Shown: positions 5,027 through 44,598 of the stretch, piece after piece | Layout: each line of letters begins with the position of its first letter | How positions within the stretch are numbered: position 1 is the stretch's first letter | DNA from: Daphnia pulex | Taxonomy: Eukaryota > Arthropoda > Branchiopoda > Diplostraca > Daphniidae | DNA: 64,000 bases | NCBI RefSeq assembly: GCF_021134715.1 | Contig: NC_060026.1 | Coordinates: forward strand, 14,933,001 to 14,997,000 | Direction: 5' to 3' | Made by a program: the position numbers and the translations under genes | Notes under the pieces: generated by a model | Seen by the model: the letters and a program-made list of their open reading frames with translations, nothing else | What the model was told of the DNA's origin: nothing | Database searches by the model: none

Positions 5027-5313
5027 TTTTTTCCCGCCTTTTTCATTCTCCAAGAAAATAAACTATCTCTAATGCGACCCACATAGACGCTTTGAAATTA
5101 AGATCGGGATAAATGCTGATTTTTTGTTTGTGTCCAAATTTTCAAATCAACTGGCGAACTCTGTACCTGTTGACTTGTTATGGGCGAAGGTGTAGATTTT
5201 GGACTACGGTACGAACGAAGCGGTAAACACCTTATTTTGTTTTTTTACCTTTCGCCGACATTTTCTCCCTTTGATGCTTTTAATTTAGGACGTGAATCCC
5301 GCAACGCGCTGTT

Positions 5314-5330
5314 CACGTGGCCATCACCTG
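5314..5330. promoter_or_regulatory. Carbohydrate-response-element-like paired E-boxes, G6Pase copy 1
   Basis: CACGTG-GCCAT-CACCTG: two E-boxes separated by exactly 5 bp, the spacing of ChoREs bound by Mondo/ChREBP with Mlx. It sits about 750 bp upstream of the copy 1 ATG and is nearly identical to the element at 10216-10232 upstream of copy 2, though most of the surrounding sequence differs. Confidence 0.55.
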
Positions 5331-5339
5331 CACACAGGT

Positions 5340-7893
5340 TAGGCCGGTCCGTGCTAGTGATTTTCCCGACATTCAGGATTTCTTGTGACACATCTGTCGC
5401 AATTTTGTTGTTCACATCCGAACACTTTTTCCGAGAATTGTGGATAATAATATCGGCACCGAATCGTGTAAAACTATCAGGAACGAAATGATGGGCCGTC
5501 GAAAGTTCCTGTTACTAAATCTGAAAATAAATGTTATGTTTAAATGTTCTTATATCAACTTGAACTCAATTACATTCTAAAATAGAACACCCTAAATCAA
5601 TAGCGATAACCGTGGAATTATAAATGAAACATTAAAAACTATTATCTAGTTGCTTTCATTTGCTGTAGTGACACAACGCCAGTTTGCGGGCAGATTTACG
5701 TAACGGAATTTAAATGCTATTAGGTTTTATTTGTGGGGGTTTTGTCTCAACGAGGAGTTGCCGGTGTGGAGGCAGGTCCCTCTTATAGTCAGAAAATTTT
5801 CTAGTTTTGCTTAAAGTGTTCAAAGTTCAAATATTTTTCGAATTTGATTGTTTCCCCACAGACAAATTCGGCCAAAGTTGTAAGGTAAAAAATCGGGCCT
5901 CATCTGCAGTCGAAAATGAGTTATTTAATGACCCTAACTGAGTAAAAAAAAACAGCAAGTGCCAGTCAACCGGCAAGCTTAGGAATAATCGTATCCCGTA
6001 CTATTTCACGCTTTCTAATAAGCCCCAAAATAGTAAAAATAGAGAAACAGTTATCCTACCTTAAAGCCTTGGAAATACGTCCAGGTATCCACAAGTGATC
6101 CATCCATCCGAATCCGATGGAATCCACCAGGCGGGATAGGAAAAAGGGGGTCCTCATGAATACACTCACACTCACATGGGTGTACAGGAGGACATTTAAA
6201 GAAAAGGGAATCGAAGAGATCTGTGACTCGATCCGACTTCCGATACCGGTAGGATCATCACTCAAACAGGATGCTGTTTATCTTAATCAAAAATAAAAAA
6301 TGGCTTATGAAAAATATTTGCAGAAACAACAAGTAAGGACAAGTTGAAACGAGACAGTAGGTAAACCCAAATTTTTAGTAAATGGAAGAATTGAAAATCA
6401 TTACCCAATCGATGAGAATGTTGCTGATGACAGGTTGAATAGCAGCACATGCAAAACTTTGCATATCTTGTGGTTATGATGGCTGGCTCAGGCCTCAAAT
6501 CTACACAAAGGAAAAGGTTACATAATGCAAACAAACTGCCATGCATTGACAGGGGGCACATATGATAAATGCTAGTCAGGACTCAGAATTTCAGGAATCA
6601 ACATTTCACCAATTTGGAACAGGTTTAACTCTTCTAATTTATCTCCCATAATCATTCCATTTGTATTATTAGTTTTAATTACCTGCCAAACAGATTGAAG
6701 TGGAGAGCATGGAGAGCCATGACACCAGCGTTCACACGACGACCACATTTTTATAATTTTAACTTAGTTTCCCTAATATTTTTCGACCGTTTCCCAAAAA
6801 GACAACGTGATTGTTCTGTTTTCTTTGAAATTTCAAACAGCCTCTTTTCGAAACCTGTAAACACATGGAAAGCAGACGAAACTCAATCTTCTAATTAGCT
6901 TCTTAAGATATCGATATAAATTTAAAATCGACCTCCCTCCCCTTAAATCCAAACCGCTCAAAAACGATAAACATAAATGGATAAAAGTGGTTGTTTCCGC
7001 TCGACATCCGCTGAACGGATCAGGATTATTTAATAATAGTTCATCTCATTAAGTTACACTGAGCCCCTCTACAAGTCAAGAAAAAAATTAGCACTAACCC
7101 ACAGAAAATTATTTTTAGACCAAAACCGCCATAATAAGACCCTCCATGACCCTTTTAGAAGCCGAGATGGAATAAGAAGGTTTATTCAAATGAGATGTCG
7201 TTCTAGTGGATGTTGCGCAAGACTGAGTCACGAAATCAATTTTGCAACACTCGCCCACGCTACTCTGTCACGTGTTTAAGACGTGTTCATCCATTTGTTA
7301 CTGATTGATCAAAAACATGATGTCTTCGTTTAATGTCGTAAGCATTTATAGATTTTTTACCGCAAGTAAAAAAAAGAAGCCGACAAAAGACAACGTTTGC
7401 AGGTCCTTCATTATTTATAGTTATAACAAAAATCAAGAAAACGAATAGAAATTAATTTGAAAATCTTTATTTGTAAAATTCACGTATTCAACATTCGATA
7501 TTACGAAGATAGTATACATTTGAATTTAGTAAAATGACCTATTTTTGGCGCTTCAACAACAAGATAATTGATCGCATACACAGTTACACATTACAGCCAT
7601 ATATAAATATCACCAATCTGTCACACAAGAAAGATTCTTCGCCTCGCAATAAACCAATTTGTTATAAAAGATACTATTCACAAAATTATAGGAAGACACA
7701 AGCCAGCTTCATCCTAAATTTGTCGGAATGGCTGTACAAAGTGGGAGCATCAGACTAAACAAGTAATTGATTGTCCAAGACAGTCATTCAATTATTTTAA
7801 ACAAATCACGCGGTCGATTGCACACGCCGACTAATATTGCGCGTGTGAGGTATGAGCTTCTTTCTCAAAGCTTCTCTTCATTTCCTGTCCTAC
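5340..7893. other. Gap between the G6Pase copies, no gene seen
   Basis: AT-rich DNA with only short frames of no recognisable content. A patch near 6850-7010 resembles the downstream flank of copy 1 near 2790-2910: both have an AAAGCAGACGA word followed by CAAACC and a GGTT(G/T)T(T/C)T run. It may mark the 3' part of the duplicated unit. Confidence 0.4.
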
Positions 7894-16155: not shown

Positions 16156-17285
16156 ATGTCTCGTTTCTCAGTCGGTGTCAGTTTGATATTCATTTTAGGT
16201 TGCGGCGCGATTTGTTCTTCCGCTTCTGCCACCTATTCCTTAGAAGACAAATTGAAAGAATTAGAATCGAGACTCGAAACGAAAATCGATTTATTAGAGT
16301 CTAAAAATAGAGAACTTGAAGAAAAGGTGACGCAACTGGGGACCCAATTAGAACGAAATGTAAGTTTCTAAACAGATTCATCTTGTTATTTTCCTCCAAT
16401 AGATTAAATACAATTTGATTTACACTAGAATGAAAGTAGAGACGAATTGGCTCTACAAGTTATCGAATTGAAAACTAAAGTTCAAGAACAAGACAAAGTT
16501 TTATCCGTCCTATTGAGAGAAAAGAAGGCAGATTCAGATGTTTCGATCAACATTAATAATCAATCACCCGTGGCTGTCAATGGATTGCCATCTTCGTGTG
16601 CAGATCTCAAAAGCATGGGCCACATCTGGAACGGATTTTATTCCGTTATGGGAAATACAACGATGGAATCCGTTTACTGCGATTTCACTAAACCCCCAAG
16701 CGATGCGGGTAATTTTGATTATTCTGCGTACTGTATGTTTTGTTGTAATCATCAATATTTTTTTAATATTTTTTATTATGATTTACTTTATTTGGAAAAG
16801 GTTTCCAAAAATGGATCGGATACAACGGCGTCAAATCAGCACCCGTCTATTTCCACGCTACGAGATCTTATAGTTTTAACACAATTGGACTCCCAATTAA
16901 CTACACTTACATACCGTTGAACGTAGGAAATGCTATGGATGGGGCATCAGGAATATTCACGGCCCCACGATCGGGAGTTTATTTCTTCGCCTTCACGGGA
17001 CAGGTGGAGTTTCCAGCTTCATCCTCGCCTGATCGTGTAGTGTTACAAGTTATGCTTCAAAGTACACAGAGTGAAGTCGGGAGGATTGCAGTTACAGAAA
17101 CCAACACCAACGCTTATCATAGGAGTTTACTAACTCTTCAGGCGACGGTGAACTTGAAATCAGGTGAACAAGTCTTGTTAAGGATTATCAACATTGATCC
17201 AGGAACTAATTTGAATGGCGACGGTTATCTCTGCACCTTTTTCACCGGTTTCCTGTTGGAGGAGGAAATTGCCGCGTCTGTTTAA
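16156..17285 (+). CDS. Secreted coiled-coil/C1q-domain protein
   Basis: Likely an extracellular lectin-like or immune-type protein; the ligand is unknown. Exons: 16156-16359, 16429-16708, 16801-17285, 322 aa. It begins with a signal peptide (VSLIFILGCGAICSS) and a heptad coiled coil from about residue 30 to 100. Next is a Cys-x-Asp-Leu ... VYCDF segment near 125-160 that resembles the start of fibrinogen-like and collagen C-terminal domains. The last exon encodes a C1q jelly roll (from FQKWIGY; YFFAFTG; LKSGEQV; FTGFLLEEE). It has no collagen Gly-X-Y repeat, unlike vertebrate C1q. Relatives lie at 43540-44598 and, fused to a protease, at 30832-33780. Confidence 0.88.
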
Positions 17286-29363: not shown

Positions 29364-30831
29364 AAATTGTCATCATTCTCTTATTTAAAACTTTTTAAAA
29401 TTTATTGAATTTAATTTTTTTCCCGGTCACGTATAACGATATTGATGCAATACACAAAATTCTGAATCATTGAAAATTGTGGGAGGAATTGGAAATCTTT
29501 TCTTGAGCAAGTCGATTGCAAGTGAATAATTATTGCTGCTCGAGACACCTAATATTATTATATCCGTGTCGTCAGATGATTTTAAAAAAACTGGAAATAA
29601 TACTTATTTCAGGGAATGAAAAGGTCACATTTACGTGTCGCGTCACGTCAATTAAATTTGTTTTCCTTTATTGATCGAATTTTTTTCCCTTCCCTATTTT
29701 TGTTTAGTCCCAAAATTTGTTGTAGTTTTTTGTTTTTATAATTATTGTTTAATTTTTGTTATTTATTTTTTACATATCTAAACGTTTCAGCTTTAACTTT
29801 TATGTGATTTGAAGCTGCGATCGGCAATCAAATTGAAGTTTATTTTTTATTTTTGTAGGGGGGGGGGTAATCAAATTCAAGTCCCCTGCCCTTGATTTTG
29901 CTGGTAGACGCGTGAATTTTCTTTGGGCCATGCACAACTATAGTGAGCATGGAACTGTGAAGAAATTTAGAAAAAATCCCAACCCTAAATGAATTAAAAG
30001 CAAATGAATTTTCTGACATCTCTTATCTAACGCGCCTTTTATAAATTTGACAATCAAAATTGGTTTTTTTACTTGCCACGCCCACATTTTTATAAATATA
30101 AAATTAAAAATTGGTGTGTGCATTAAAAATGTCTAGTCGCATATACAGTTTAATTTTCGTAAAGATATTCCCACTCCTTAATTGAATAAGAGTCGAACGA
30201 ATTTTCTCCCCTTCACTTTTTTCTCCTATTGCGTCCGTGAGAAAAGGAAATAATTAAAATTTATGCAAATAAAATTGTAATAGTAAAAGCATCCTTAAAG
30301 ATAAACGAGATGTGATGTGTAGCTGCATCGTTTTAAGCGAAATTTTAAATTTAAAAAAAATAGAATAAATTTTTATGCTTGGCAATCAAAATGAGTTTTT
30401 CACGTCCCGTGCCCTTGATTTTAGAGATAGACCAGTGATTTTTTCCGGACGAGTGCATAACTGAAAAGTTAATTCATCTGTAAAAGAATTTTTTGAAAAT
30501 TCCAAACCGTAAACGAATTACGGCCAAATGAATTTTCTCCCATTTCAAGGCCTCCCGTTTATTGTAAATCTGTCAATCAAAATTGGTTTTTTGCTGATCG
30601 CGTTTGGAGTTTTGCAGATCCAAACTTGAAATTCGTTTTGTGTATTCAGTAAAGGTAATTACATCTACAGTTCAACTTTGGCAAAGAAATTCCTATTCCT
30701 AAATGAATTAGAGTCGAACATATTTTCTTTCCCTCCCCCCGTAAAATTCCCTCCGTCCCCAAAATTTCGTGTCGAAATTAAACAAAAATGTTCGTGTCGA
30801 AAATGTTTCGTGTCGCCGATGAAGTTGAACC
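29364..30831. repeat. AT-rich flank with copies of a locally repeated sequence
   Basis: Two related stretches near 29810-30140 and 30380-30830 share the order GCCCTTGATTTT, (A)TAGAC, GTGAATTTT, GCACAACT, GTCAATCAAAATTGG. A third relative lies at 43050-43540 downstream of the other minus-strand C1q gene, and a shorter piece near 45390-45490. They appear to be duplicated 3' flanks of the C1q family rather than a defined transposon. Confidence 0.6.
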
Positions 30832-33780
30832 TCAAAGTGACGCGGCAATTTCCTCGTCCAACATGAAACCCGTGAAATGGGTCAAGTGGAAATTCCTGAT
30901 GTCATACAAAGACGTTTCTGAATTAGGATAAATAATCTCCACCCAGACTTGATCGCCTTTTTTCAGGTTCAGCGTCGACTGGAGGGTAAACGGACTATTT
31001 TGATCAACGGGGGCTTTATCTTCTCTGACGTAACTCGTCCCGATTCGTTTCCCGTTCAAATAAATATAAGAATGAAAATAAACATCAGATGAAGATTCAA
31101 GACGCGCAACTCCCGTGAAAGAGAAAAAATAAGTTCCCGGTCGCGGTGCCGTGAATTTCCCCGATGTCAAATTCATTGCGTTTCCCTCGTTCACCAAGGC
31201 CGAATCGAATGGAACCGGAGTTGAGTCGTTGTAAAATGGCCAATTTCTCTGGACGTAGAAATAGACGGGCGCCGATTTGACGTCGGCGAATCCGATCCAT
31301 TTCTGGTTGTCTATAAACAAAAGATTTCGATGAACAATTTACAAATGAAATTAAAACATTTCGTACCATTTTGATTGGCAAAAAAGTTGCAGTAAATCAT
31401 TTCCATCTTCTTTGCTCCTTTTACGGAAAAGAATCCGTTGATTCTTTGTCCCATTCGCTGCAGATCCCAACATGAGGTTGGCATTTTACCAATGTCGACT
31501 AATTCACTCGTTCGGGCTGTTAAATTCAAATTCTTTCAATTAGTTAATAAGCTGAAATTTTTTAATTACAGTTTACCTTTAAATTCGGTGGCCAAATCAG
31601 TAAAGGCGGACTTTGTTCTGTTCAATTCCGTTCTCGTTGAGGCCAAATTCGTTTTTGTAGTTTTCAAATCATTTGAGGTTGCTGAACCATTTCATTCGAT
31701 TAAAATATAAACAATTTCAAATAATAAAACATAATTATTTTACTTCTTAGATCTTTTTTAAAATTTTCGGCGGTAACTTTTAATTCTTGACCTAATCGAT
31801 CCGAATTCGCTACACAATCTAAGAAAACAGAATTAATTTTAAAAAAATTATTTTTCAACAAAATTCGATTCGTCGTGAAATGACGGTGCAATGATGACGT
31901 GAAATGATGGCTGCAATCCAATTACAGTAATTAAATAAAAATTTGACATTTTTTGTAACATTTTTTATAAATTTACAGTAACGGAAAAAAATACTATTAT
32001 TTTCTAAAAACCATATCAAAATACCTTCTAATTTTTTATTCAAATTGGTTCGTGTGTCAATTAAATCATTTCTCAGTTCAATATTCTTTTTCTCCAAATT
32101 GTTCACGGTTGTTTTTAAGAGCTCAAGAGTGGCTGCAATTCAGTTACAAGAAATTAAATAAATTTCTTTTATAAATCAACATTCAAAATTTCTTCTTCTT
32201 AATCTTATCTACTATTGATACCTATACCTTTTAATTCAAGCGCCAATTTCCTGCTGAACTGATTCTGCCCGTACAGTTCCTAAATTGCGTTTTTTTTTAA
32301 TGAATCATTAAGGGGAAAAATGATTTGAATCAATTTGAAAACAGTTGAATTTTCATTTTGGTGCAATTTTACCTGAACGCCTTCAATGTCGTCCTTGTCT
32401 AATTTGAAATCAGAACGATACTCGTATGCAAAATACATCACAGCAGCCGTGTTGTTTGTGTGTTCCAGTCCCAAAGAGTGGCCAAACTCGTGAGTAGCCA
32501 CCTGGAATAAATTCGTCCCTGTGCGGATGCAAAGAAATCGATCAACATTTGGAACTGAAGGAATAAAAACTTATTGATGGATGTCAAATCAATACACGTT
32601 TTACCTTTAACAGAGTCGAGCGTCCAGGTTTCGCTTTCGTCAAAATGAGCATCACCTCCGTTTATAGGATGGGCAGCGTGAGCTAAAGTACCACCCGGTC
32701 CATCAATGAAGGGATCATCGCAATTTCCATGTTCTCCATCATGTTCTCCAATTGCAAAACTGAATCAAACAATCCAATAGTTGAATTAATCGAATTTTGC
32801 CAGATAATGAAGTGTCCACTATATCATTATATCCGATTATATCATTATATCACCACTATACACTATATGATCATACACTATATTATTCACTTGCGTTCAC
32901 TTTTTGTTGCAAAATGCCATATAATGGCAATTATTTTATTCAATAGTTACAGGATGTCGATGTCGACGTTAGCCGATGTATTTTTGACATGAACGAAGGC
33001 CAAATCAGTCACGTTCGCCCAAATCTCAAAGGCTCTGGCGATTTCACGATCGACGACAGGTGGGCTCATATCCGGCGTGTATTTCTTAATTTTGTAAGTT
33101 AATTTTTTCTTAGGCCAATGGCTCCCTGCTCAAAATCAATTTAAAATATAACAAGAATCTGTAAAGACCCTAAGCAATATTGGATATCCATTCCTTCAAG
33201 TGCGAATCGTTTCGGGCGAGTCCTTGAAGAACCGGGGCGAATTCGATCCGGAACCCCACAACGCGGTTTATTCATCAATTCCTTCGTCGCCTCATCAAGT
33301 TTACCTGCGAACCATTTTTCCAAAAGGCTTTTCTTTATATAATCGACTTATTTAAAAAGGCCAGAAGGCAAATGTAAATGTAAATACTGATGCAATGACC
33401 TTACCCGTTATCTTCAATCCAGCAAAGGATTGAAAATCTTCTATTGCGCTCCTGAAAGACTCAGCTGAAACACTTTCCGAATAAGAAGAGTCCTGAGGTC
33501 CACGTTCCAAATAGCCGAATCTTCCCAGGTATCTCTAAACGACGACACGAAAAAGAACACGCAAAACAGCAAAAATAATAATTGTTAAGAGAGATCTGCG
33601 CTGGCTTTATTGCGCTTATTTTTCGCTAGTGAATTAAAATGATTGGCACATGACCCATATATAATTAAAACGGAATTTTACCGCTGCTTCTTCGGCACTG
33701 TCGATTGGAGCAGCGACGACATAATTTATCGCCGACAAGCAACACACGAAACTTAATGTCAACCACATTAGATGCCACAT
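30832..33780 (-). CDS. Chimeric matrix metalloproteinase, coiled coil and C1q protein
   Basis: Predicted secreted zinc protease carrying a C1q trimer domain. Exons (minus): 33780-33682, 33534-33405, 33304-33194, 33125-32951, 32759-32605, 32554-32373, 32279-32228, 32132-32025, 31809-31744, 31681-31577, 31516-31367, 31310-30832, 603 aa. Order: signal peptide (1-27), peptidoglycan-binding-like prodomain, cysteine switch PRCGVPD (90-96), furin site RPKR (106-109), catalytic domain with [10 protein letters not shown] and [11 protein letters not shown] (245-255), Met-turn VMYF, ending DDIEGVQELYG. The frame runs on into heptad exons, a CWDL...YCNF segment and C1q (445-603, [16 protein letters not shown]). 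There is no hemopexin domain. All phases agree, but intron 3 begins GA instead of GT, so splicing there is uncertain. The alternative is two genes or a decayed one. Confidence 0.75.
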
Positions 33781-43539: not shown

Positions 43540-44598
43540 TCAAAGGGACGCCACAATTTCTTCCTCCAACATGAAACCCGTGAAATGGGTCAAGTGGTAA
43601 TTAAGGACGAGGTCATTCAAATACGAGGATGTACCACCTTCAAAATAAATCGACACCCAGACTTGATCGCCTGTTTTCAAGTTCAGCGTCGACTGGACGG
43701 TCAACGGACTAACTTGATCAATGGGGCCGCCGTTAATTTGAACAAAACCCGTCCCGATTACACTCCCGTTCAAAACAAGAGCAGAAAAAAAATAAGGTCC
43801 AAGATGCGCCACTCCCGTGAAAGAGAAAAAATAAATTCCCGGTGCTGGTGCCGTGAATTTCCCCGACGTCAAATTCATGGCATTTCCAACGTTCACCACC
43901 GCCAAATCGAACGGAAGCGGAGTGTATTGTTGGGAAAATGTTGAATTTCTCTGGACGTAGAAATGGACGGGCGTCGATTTGACGTCGACGTATCCGATCC
44001 TTTTCTCAAAACCTTTTCATTAATTATAGAATTAAAAAACATAAAATTGCAACTGAATAATTCGTGAAAATCTAAAACATTTACCCGCATCGCCAGGGGG
44101 TTTAGTGAAATCGCAGAAAACGGATTCCATTTTCGCCAATCCCATGACGGAATAAAATCCGCTCCAAATGTGGCCAATGCTTTTGAGATCCGCGCATGAG
44201 GACGGCAGTCCGTTGATGGCAACAGCCGATGGATTATTGACAATTGGAACAGAGTCGGTTGCTGCTGCTGTGCGTTCATTTTTCTCTCGTGAAAGGGAAG
44301 TTAAAAGCGAATCTTGTTGTTCAACTTTGGCCTCCAAACTTTTTACGATTTGTTTCATTTGAATCTATTGGCAAATGGAATAAAATTACAATAAGACATG
44401 AAAAATTAACAAATTGAATTGGACGGTCGACAATCATCGCGTGAAAAAGAAATTTTGATAAATTCTTACGTAATTTTCCTTCAGTTGTAGGAATTCTTCC
44501 TCCAAGGAAAAGGCAGCGCCTGTCGAACTCGGCGTCCAACAAATCAAAACCAACAGCCAAACAACTTGGGTGAGTGAAACTACAGAAAAATGCGCCAT
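43540..44598 (-). CDS. Secreted coiled-coil/C1q-domain protein, second simple copy
   Basis: Same architecture as the protein at 16156-17285. Exons (minus): 44598-44470, 44364-44085, 44012-43540, 293 aa. The middle exon is 280 bp in both genes, with the same phases. Signal peptide (VVWLLVLICWTPSSTGA), a short coiled coil with VKSLEAKVEQQDSLL, the CADLKSIGHIWSGFYSV ... VFCDF segment, then a C1q domain from GFEKRIGYVDV to FTGFMLEEEIVASL. The C1q exon is much closer to that of the MMP-C1q gene (shared [25 protein letters not shown]) than to the first C1q gene. That makes this gene the likely sister of the chimera's tail. Confidence 0.9.

Follow-up and report, generated by a model that had tools for sequence, protein, structure and literature searches.

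The window, a stretch of 64,000 nucleotides of Daphnia pulex DNA, carries on its minus strand a gene of 12 exons, from 33780 to 30832, hereafter called the window gene. Exon phases match throughout and yield a frame of 594 residues with no internal stop, and a spliced aligner queried with the 594-residue protein returned identical exon borders (Table 1). Encoded parts follow one another in the order signal peptide, MMP propeptide, cysteine switch, furin site, matrixin domain, coiled coil, CWDL..YCNF module and C1q. In Pfam, the protein matched PG_binding_1 at residues 30-87 (E 5e-9), Peptidase_M10 (PF00413) at residues 116-276 (E 4.2e-49), and C1q (PF00386) at residues 453-586 (E 4e-17, profile positions 2-127 of 127), all three domains sharing one frame. 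A preliminary description of this DNA had proposed 12 exons in consistent phase, a junction between DDIEGVQ and ELYG, and an in-frame fusion of an MMP to a C1q tail. The exons lay where it had placed them, the junction was as described, with a phase-0 intron, and the fusion held, protease and C1q standing in one continuous frame with the protease motifs intact. No Pfam hemopexin match was found in the protein or near its locus.

The protein belongs to the MMPs (M10A), since the matrixin domain, the HExxHxxGxxH motif, and the Met-turn AAVMYF in exon 6 are all present. As a matter of fact, its protease half matched stromelysin-1 (E 8e-49), interstitial collagenase, and others among the 60 matches listed out of 125. 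The propeptide cysteine switch PRCGVPD is present in exon 3 and enters the mRNA only if the GA donor of intron 3, or an alternative to it, is used. Further downstream, hydrophobic residues were in excess at the heptad period of the coiled coil (shuffle P 0.009). The last exon matched by sequence the heads of adiponectin, cerebellin, C1q, and collagen X in the PDB. A model of the C1q exon built from three window sequences was only fair (mean pLDDT 67), and among its 387 PDB matches at E 0.001, the 50 listed were C1q-family domains. Solved relatives of this exon include trimers, as judged by structure titles. For the two-cysteine module, a fibrinogen or COLFI identity was considered and rejected, as three pieces of it matched neither in Pfam, even at E values up to 10. 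Beyond exon 12, the 3′ flank (29792-30831) is common to many C1q genes, and repeated blocks at 30737-30400 and 30214-29876 match there at shifted places.

Table 1. Features of the window gene and of two other C1q genes of the window (positions are those of the window)
Feature	Position	Strand	Remarks
Exon 1	33682..33780	-	Signal peptide and propeptide start; phase 0 at end; hydrophobic N-terminus seen directly
Exon 2	33405..33534	-	MMP propeptide (PG_binding_1)
Exon 3	33194..33304	-	Propeptide end; 111 nt, phase 1 to 1
Cysteine switch PRCGVPD (exon 3)	33266-33246	-	
Furin-type RPKR (exon 3)	33218-33207	-	
GA donor, intron 3	33192..33193	-	Non-canonical
Exon 4	32951..33125	-	Start of matrixin catalytic domain
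Exon 5	32605..32759	-	Metal-binding loops of catalytic domain; 12-bp tandem repeat (GGAGAACATGAT/GGAGAACATGGA)
Exon 6	32373..32518	-	Zinc site 32492-32460 and Met-turn; DDIEGVQ at end, phase 0
Exon 7	32228..32279	-	ELYG end of catalytic domain, then charged stretch; phase 0 in, phase 1 out
Exon 8	32025..32132	-	Coiled coil
Inferred exchange point, intron 8	31881..31972	-	Similarity switches from copy E2 to X-type gene L017
Exon 9	31744..31818	-	Coiled coil
Exon 10	31577..31681	-	Coiled coil
Exon 11	31367..31516	-	CWDL..YCNF two-cysteine module; no Pfam family above cut-off
Exon 12 and stop	30832..31310	-	C1q domain at about 31260-30859
Neighbour C1q gene	16156..17285	+	Signal peptide, coiled coil, C1q; outside fusion; start read by eye
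Neighbour C1q gene, same short type	43540..44598	-	Outside fusion; start read by eye

C1q exons downstream of MMP genes

A genome search with a matrixin model returned at least 41 matches (counts for large families are lower bounds), which were grouped into 16 MMP loci; at L045, a second fragment close by was counted within the same locus. A same-strand C1q exon was located within 3 kb downstream at 9 of the 16, 0.8-1.5 kb from the matched protease exon. These nine were the window gene and copies A, B, C1, C2, C3, D, and E1, all on contig C10, and copy F on contig C8. Random places in 10-16.3 Mb of C10 gave a background of 2.0%, against which 9/16 corresponded to a P of 6e-12. The C1q places of B, C2, and C3 came from their own spliced models and were added to this count by hand; with the blind Pfam list only, the count was 6/16 (P about 5e-7). 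For the proximity count, eight C1q places, some with rounded coordinates, were added by hand to the 150 C1q matches scored in the genome out of 242 candidates. Ninety-nine of these 150 lie on C10.

Spliced models of all nine loci ran from the protease through LYG (LYD in E1) and a charged stretch to C1q. Intron phases were shared across the nine: 0 after DDIxGxQ where modelled and 1 before the C1q exon, with agreement also around the protease and the module. Most models took the window gene as query and so lean towards its exon plan, and the charged or coiled-coil stretch could be modelled only approximately in A, B, C1-C3, and F, where it varied with query and penalty. Copy C2 showed one stop in its first model and in two of six re-models, the other four having none, and the two-cysteine module was not found in the C3 models. 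The HExxHxxGxxH motif was intact in eight of the nine C1q-tailed copies. In copy B (L040, C10:12.705 Mb), the zinc site reads HNIGH and the catalytic glutamate is lost, the C1q tail being still open; some family members have therefore probably lost activity.

The other MMP loci had different surroundings. E2 showed protease and coiled coil, and no C1q match in the 2.2 kb up to the next gene. Behind it, a small minus-strand frame (L043:6691-7243, C10:15.4977-15.4982 Mb) contains the bulb-lectin repeats QEDGNFVIY and MQDDGNLVGY; its PF01453 match (E 7e-6) is below the family cut-off. This frame looks like a separate gene, as its phase, read by eye, misfits E2 exon 8. L045, L047, and L048 were partial or degraded MMP copies with no C1q tail downstream. 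Beside the degraded copy of L045, a remnant of the end of a C1q exon, together with the adjoining 3′ flank, lies in reverse orientation (L045:5400-5453, minus strand, and 5132-5399). Hemopexin was found near 3 of the 16 MMP loci only, namely L044, L049, and L050.

Relatives of the tail and probable exchange between genes

Besides itself, the window tail had its best three protein matches at 74, 68, and 68%. The two places read for those matches, L071 and L015, both share the extra coiled-coil exons. The upstream side of L015, which is in L072, holds one long frame with a hydrophobic start, here called X, whose N-terminus spans about 560 residues (L072:1-1794, minus strand). An X-type frame was present upstream of 8 of the 20 C1q loci examined (L013, L017, L018, L027, L031, L036, L055, and L063) and a shorter X-related frame upstream of two (L060 and L066), the remainder being organised otherwise or having insufficient sequence upstream. 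The X family counted 84 genome matches, many on C10, and among the best 39 of these, 28 were followed within 6 kb by a C1q exon on the same strand. In Pfam, the X N-terminus gave a single match, PF14198 (E 0.0018), which stays below the cut-off, and a sequence comparison with the PDB yielded no match. We did not equate X with the ‘Cladoceran-specific’ family, whose six members shown in the available part of that source have 239-365 residues and, in five cases, a transmembrane segment (PMC9894429). The window gene has the tail cassette of the X-coiled coil-C1q family with its phase-1 introns, and an MMP instead of the X-type N-terminus. On its sequence, the window tail belongs to this family. 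A three-row alignment of window C1q exons found no relatives in prokaryote genomes and viral contigs, where crustaceans are not expected.

Comparison at the DNA level separated the window copy into two portions. E2 matched it from the 5′ flank (77%) through exons 1-8 (82-96%); in exons 3-5, E1 equalled or exceeded it (88-91%). Exon 8 was still 96% identical to E2 as against 74% to L017, an X-type gene on contig C5. From intron 8 onward, L017 matched the window gene, with identities of 91% at the end of intron 8, 97% in exon 9, 95% in intron 9, 93% in exon 10, 91% in intron 10, 91% in exon 11, 86% in intron 11, and 82% in exon 12. No counterpart of exons 9 and 10 was found in E1, E2, D, A, or B at the threshold used. 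By this pattern of identities, the window copy is a mosaic of a protease-copy front and an X-type tail, with the join in intron 8. E1 resembled the window gene once more over exons 11 and 12 and the 3′ flank (83-84%), and L017 was equalled in exon 12 by L015 (84%) and L009 (83%); more than one exchange is therefore likely. Copies C1-C3 are three tandem MMP-C1q genes (C10:15.679-15.687 Mb). C1 and C2 share 92% identity in their C1q parts and 75% in their proteases, which suggests tail exchange or conversion again.

Protease dN/dS of the window gene was 0.64, 0.65, 0.46, 0.69, and 0.63 against A, B, D, E1, and E2, and 0.32, 0.33, 0.37, and 0.23 against C1, C2, C3, and F, with dS >1 for the latter four. 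For the C1q part, values were 0.34, 0.55, 1.29, and 0.97 against A, B, D, and E1, and 0.23, 0.34, 0.20, and 0.19 against C1, C2, C3, and F; the part was cut at the first VKS, by chance too early in A and D, whose alignments still had 147 and 149 columns. Among 12 close tails, the module exon (exon 11) gave 0.31 (bootstrap 0.23-0.42) and the C1q exon (exon 12) gave 0.92 (0.67-1.22), with the highest value, 1.23 (0.78-1.90), at residues 511-560. Nowhere did dN/dS exceed 1 with confidence, the C1q ratio was low (0.19-0.55) against A, B, C1-C3, and F, the more distant copies, and gene conversion can lower or distort dS. As these ratios have it, the tails change fast around a conserved frame, which falls short of proof of positive selection.

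Origin of the fusion and alternative readings

On the MMP side, the hemopexin gene L050 was informative. Its intron places and phases (0, 1, 1, 2, 1, 0) are the same as those of window exons 1-6, and its exon 7, read by eye, starts with QLYGK and ends in phase 1. The fusion thus appears to use an ancestral intron after DDIxxIQ, with a phase-1 entry for what follows. A tree was built from 15 of the 16 MMP loci, the broken L047 being omitted. Grouping the 12 hemopexin-free proteases as one clade against the three with hemopexin was not rejected (p-AU 0.31), and the best tree had L050 among the C1q-type proteases; a single fusion is thus allowed, but unproven. The preliminary description had attributed the fusion to the arrival of a protease gene next to a C1q gene of the neighbourhood. 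This was not supported, as closer tails occur elsewhere on C10 and on C5 and the fusion recurs at nine loci. The two other C1q genes of the window, which were discarded as a source, have a shorter exon plan in which the module exon is entered at phase 0, and their C1q exons share 62% and 39% identity with that of the window gene.

A very improbable reading is that a C1q gene and, next to it, an MMP gene lacking a C-terminal domain were misread as one. Exon 7, if unspliced, could run on to a stop (read by eye), and E2 shows that protease and coiled coil occur with the C1q match absent over 2.2 kb. Yet order and strand are identical at nine loci, and the tail frame has no methionine at residues 273-396, so that a separate tail transcript would start near or inside the two-cysteine module and would lack a signal peptide. 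Comparison of the gene models thus makes the two-gene alternative unlikely. Several independent MMP-C1q fusions, instead of one fusion followed by tail exchange, also seem rather unlikely. From the 61 tails taken, nine duplicates were removed, and in the tree of the remaining 52 (9 fused, 43 not) the nine fused tails were scattered among the others, with six changes on the tree; placing them in one clade was rejected (log-likelihood 99.8 lower, p-AU 0.0005). This argues for repeated fusion, as does L050, which the best MMP tree puts with the fused proteases. However, the same catalytic-domain end, LYG, precedes the join in the models of the nine, and the intron-level identity of the window tail shows that exchange happens.

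Whether the window copy itself is still functional depends in part on intron 3. Ten of its introns are GT-AG, and intron 3 is GA-AG, a point absent from the preliminary description. In the five close relatives A, B, D, E1, and E2, the donor is GC, with the context AAG|gcagg or AAG|gcatg vs AAG|gaatg in the window, and in C1, C2, C3, and F it is GT; introns of the other nine models, pooled, were 67 GT-AG and 8 GC-AG. It is conceivable, though we lean against it, that within a real family this copy is defective or wrongly spliced: the GA donor would fail, and intron 3 would be retained or exon 3 skipped in frame. Retention would introduce a stop at residue 131, and skipping would keep the frame and leave 557 residues without cysteine switch and furin site; the small tandem insertion in a metal-binding loop goes in the same direction. 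In contrast, all other exons are open and their introns GT-AG, protease dN/dS stays below 1 against the nine copies (0.23-0.69), and the frame would survive with any of six GT-AG alternatives, one of which, a 47-nt intron, retains both switch and furin site. The GA donor may nevertheless make this copy splice poorly or skip exon 3, the carrier of the cysteine switch; were exon 3 lost in frame, a protease without cysteine switch would arise from this copy.

Proposed protein and known systems

The nine genes probably encode a family of secreted, furin-activated MMPs with a coiled coil, a two-cysteine module, and a C1q head in place of hinge and hemopexin, the protein being trimeric and ligand-held and the heads exchanged. 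As for related proteases, furin would activate the enzyme in the secretory path. Coiled coil and C1q head would make a trimer, by analogy with solved C1q relatives, and the head would bind surfaces or ligands and hold the protease there, which would thereby be concentrated at the bound surface. The C1q head would have replaced hemopexin, heads being exchanged within a fast-changing C1q pool. Exchange and fast change might let the family follow moving targets, for which microbes or parasites are the most plausible candidates and self matrix a possible one. An immune role is a guess, to which the fast change of the heads, their sharing with a large family, and, by analogy, the C1q gene described in the available part of PMC11193740 lend support.

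Another view, which we hold to be possible but doubtful, is that the C1q tail only oligomerises the protease or anchors it in the animal's own matrix or cuticle as a hemopexin substitute, with nothing immune about it. Solved relatives of the C1q exon do include the non-immune collagens VIII and X, cerebellin, and adiponectin. However, in the 12-gene tail set, dN/dS of the C1q exon is three times that of the module exon, and the tails are exchanged and common to a large family, which a fixed self anchor would presumably not need. Returning to the ligand-held protease with exchangeable heads, a further, less likely possibility is a combinatorial effector system in which, in this lineage, rapidly changing C1q heads from a large pool are swapped by intronic recombination between at least two kinds of N-terminus, one of them a protease, and in which the protease family keeps gaining new heads.

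As a rule, MMPs take their direction from hemopexin, and C1q heads recruit proteases that are separate proteins. A single chain with MMP and C1q would merge recognition and cutting and, if heads are exchanged between genes, water fleas could retarget a secreted protease by recombination. Water fleas are a main model of host-parasite coevolution. With nine copies, three hemopexin MMPs, and donor-type genes in one genome, both origin and function are directly testable. In the open-access literature, with subscription journals, preprints, and protein databases outside its scope, our search found no report of a matrixin-C1q protein in crustaceans; public annotation may well include gene models of these loci.

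Most secreted MMPs have a hinge and a hemopexin domain, which are absent in matrilysins. The hemopexin MMPs of M10A in this genome (L044, L049, and L050) share with the window gene the matrixin domain with HExxHxxGxxH, and L050 also shares the hydrophobic start, the switch (PRCGVRD), and the exon 1-6 intron phases. They differ after LYG, where hinge and hemopexin blades follow, whereas the window gene continues into coiled coil, two-cysteine module, and C1q. Among C1q proteins, the bivalve class of C1q-like type II consists of signal peptide, coiled coil, and C1q; it resembles the window gene in having a coiled coil followed by a C-terminal C1q and in belonging to a large, tandemly expanded family, but has no enzyme domain in the available part of its description (PMC6835236), whereas the window gene has a protease in front. 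In Daphnia magna, 11F-21.35 combines COLFI and C1q and lies near Pasteuria resistance loci, and a water flea C1q gene near such loci shows trans-species polymorphism and signs of balancing selection (PMC11193740, available part). Like the window gene, 11F-21.35 encodes a water flea protein that ends in a C1q domain. It differs, in a comparison by description only, in that this part of the source mentions no metalloproteinase; Pfam gave no COLFI match to the window two-cysteine module. The X-coiled coil-C1q family (L072 with L015, and L017) has the same tail cassette and phase-1 introns, L017 being 91-97% identical in exons 9-11 and introns 9 and 10, and differs by its long non-protease N-terminus in place of the MMP.
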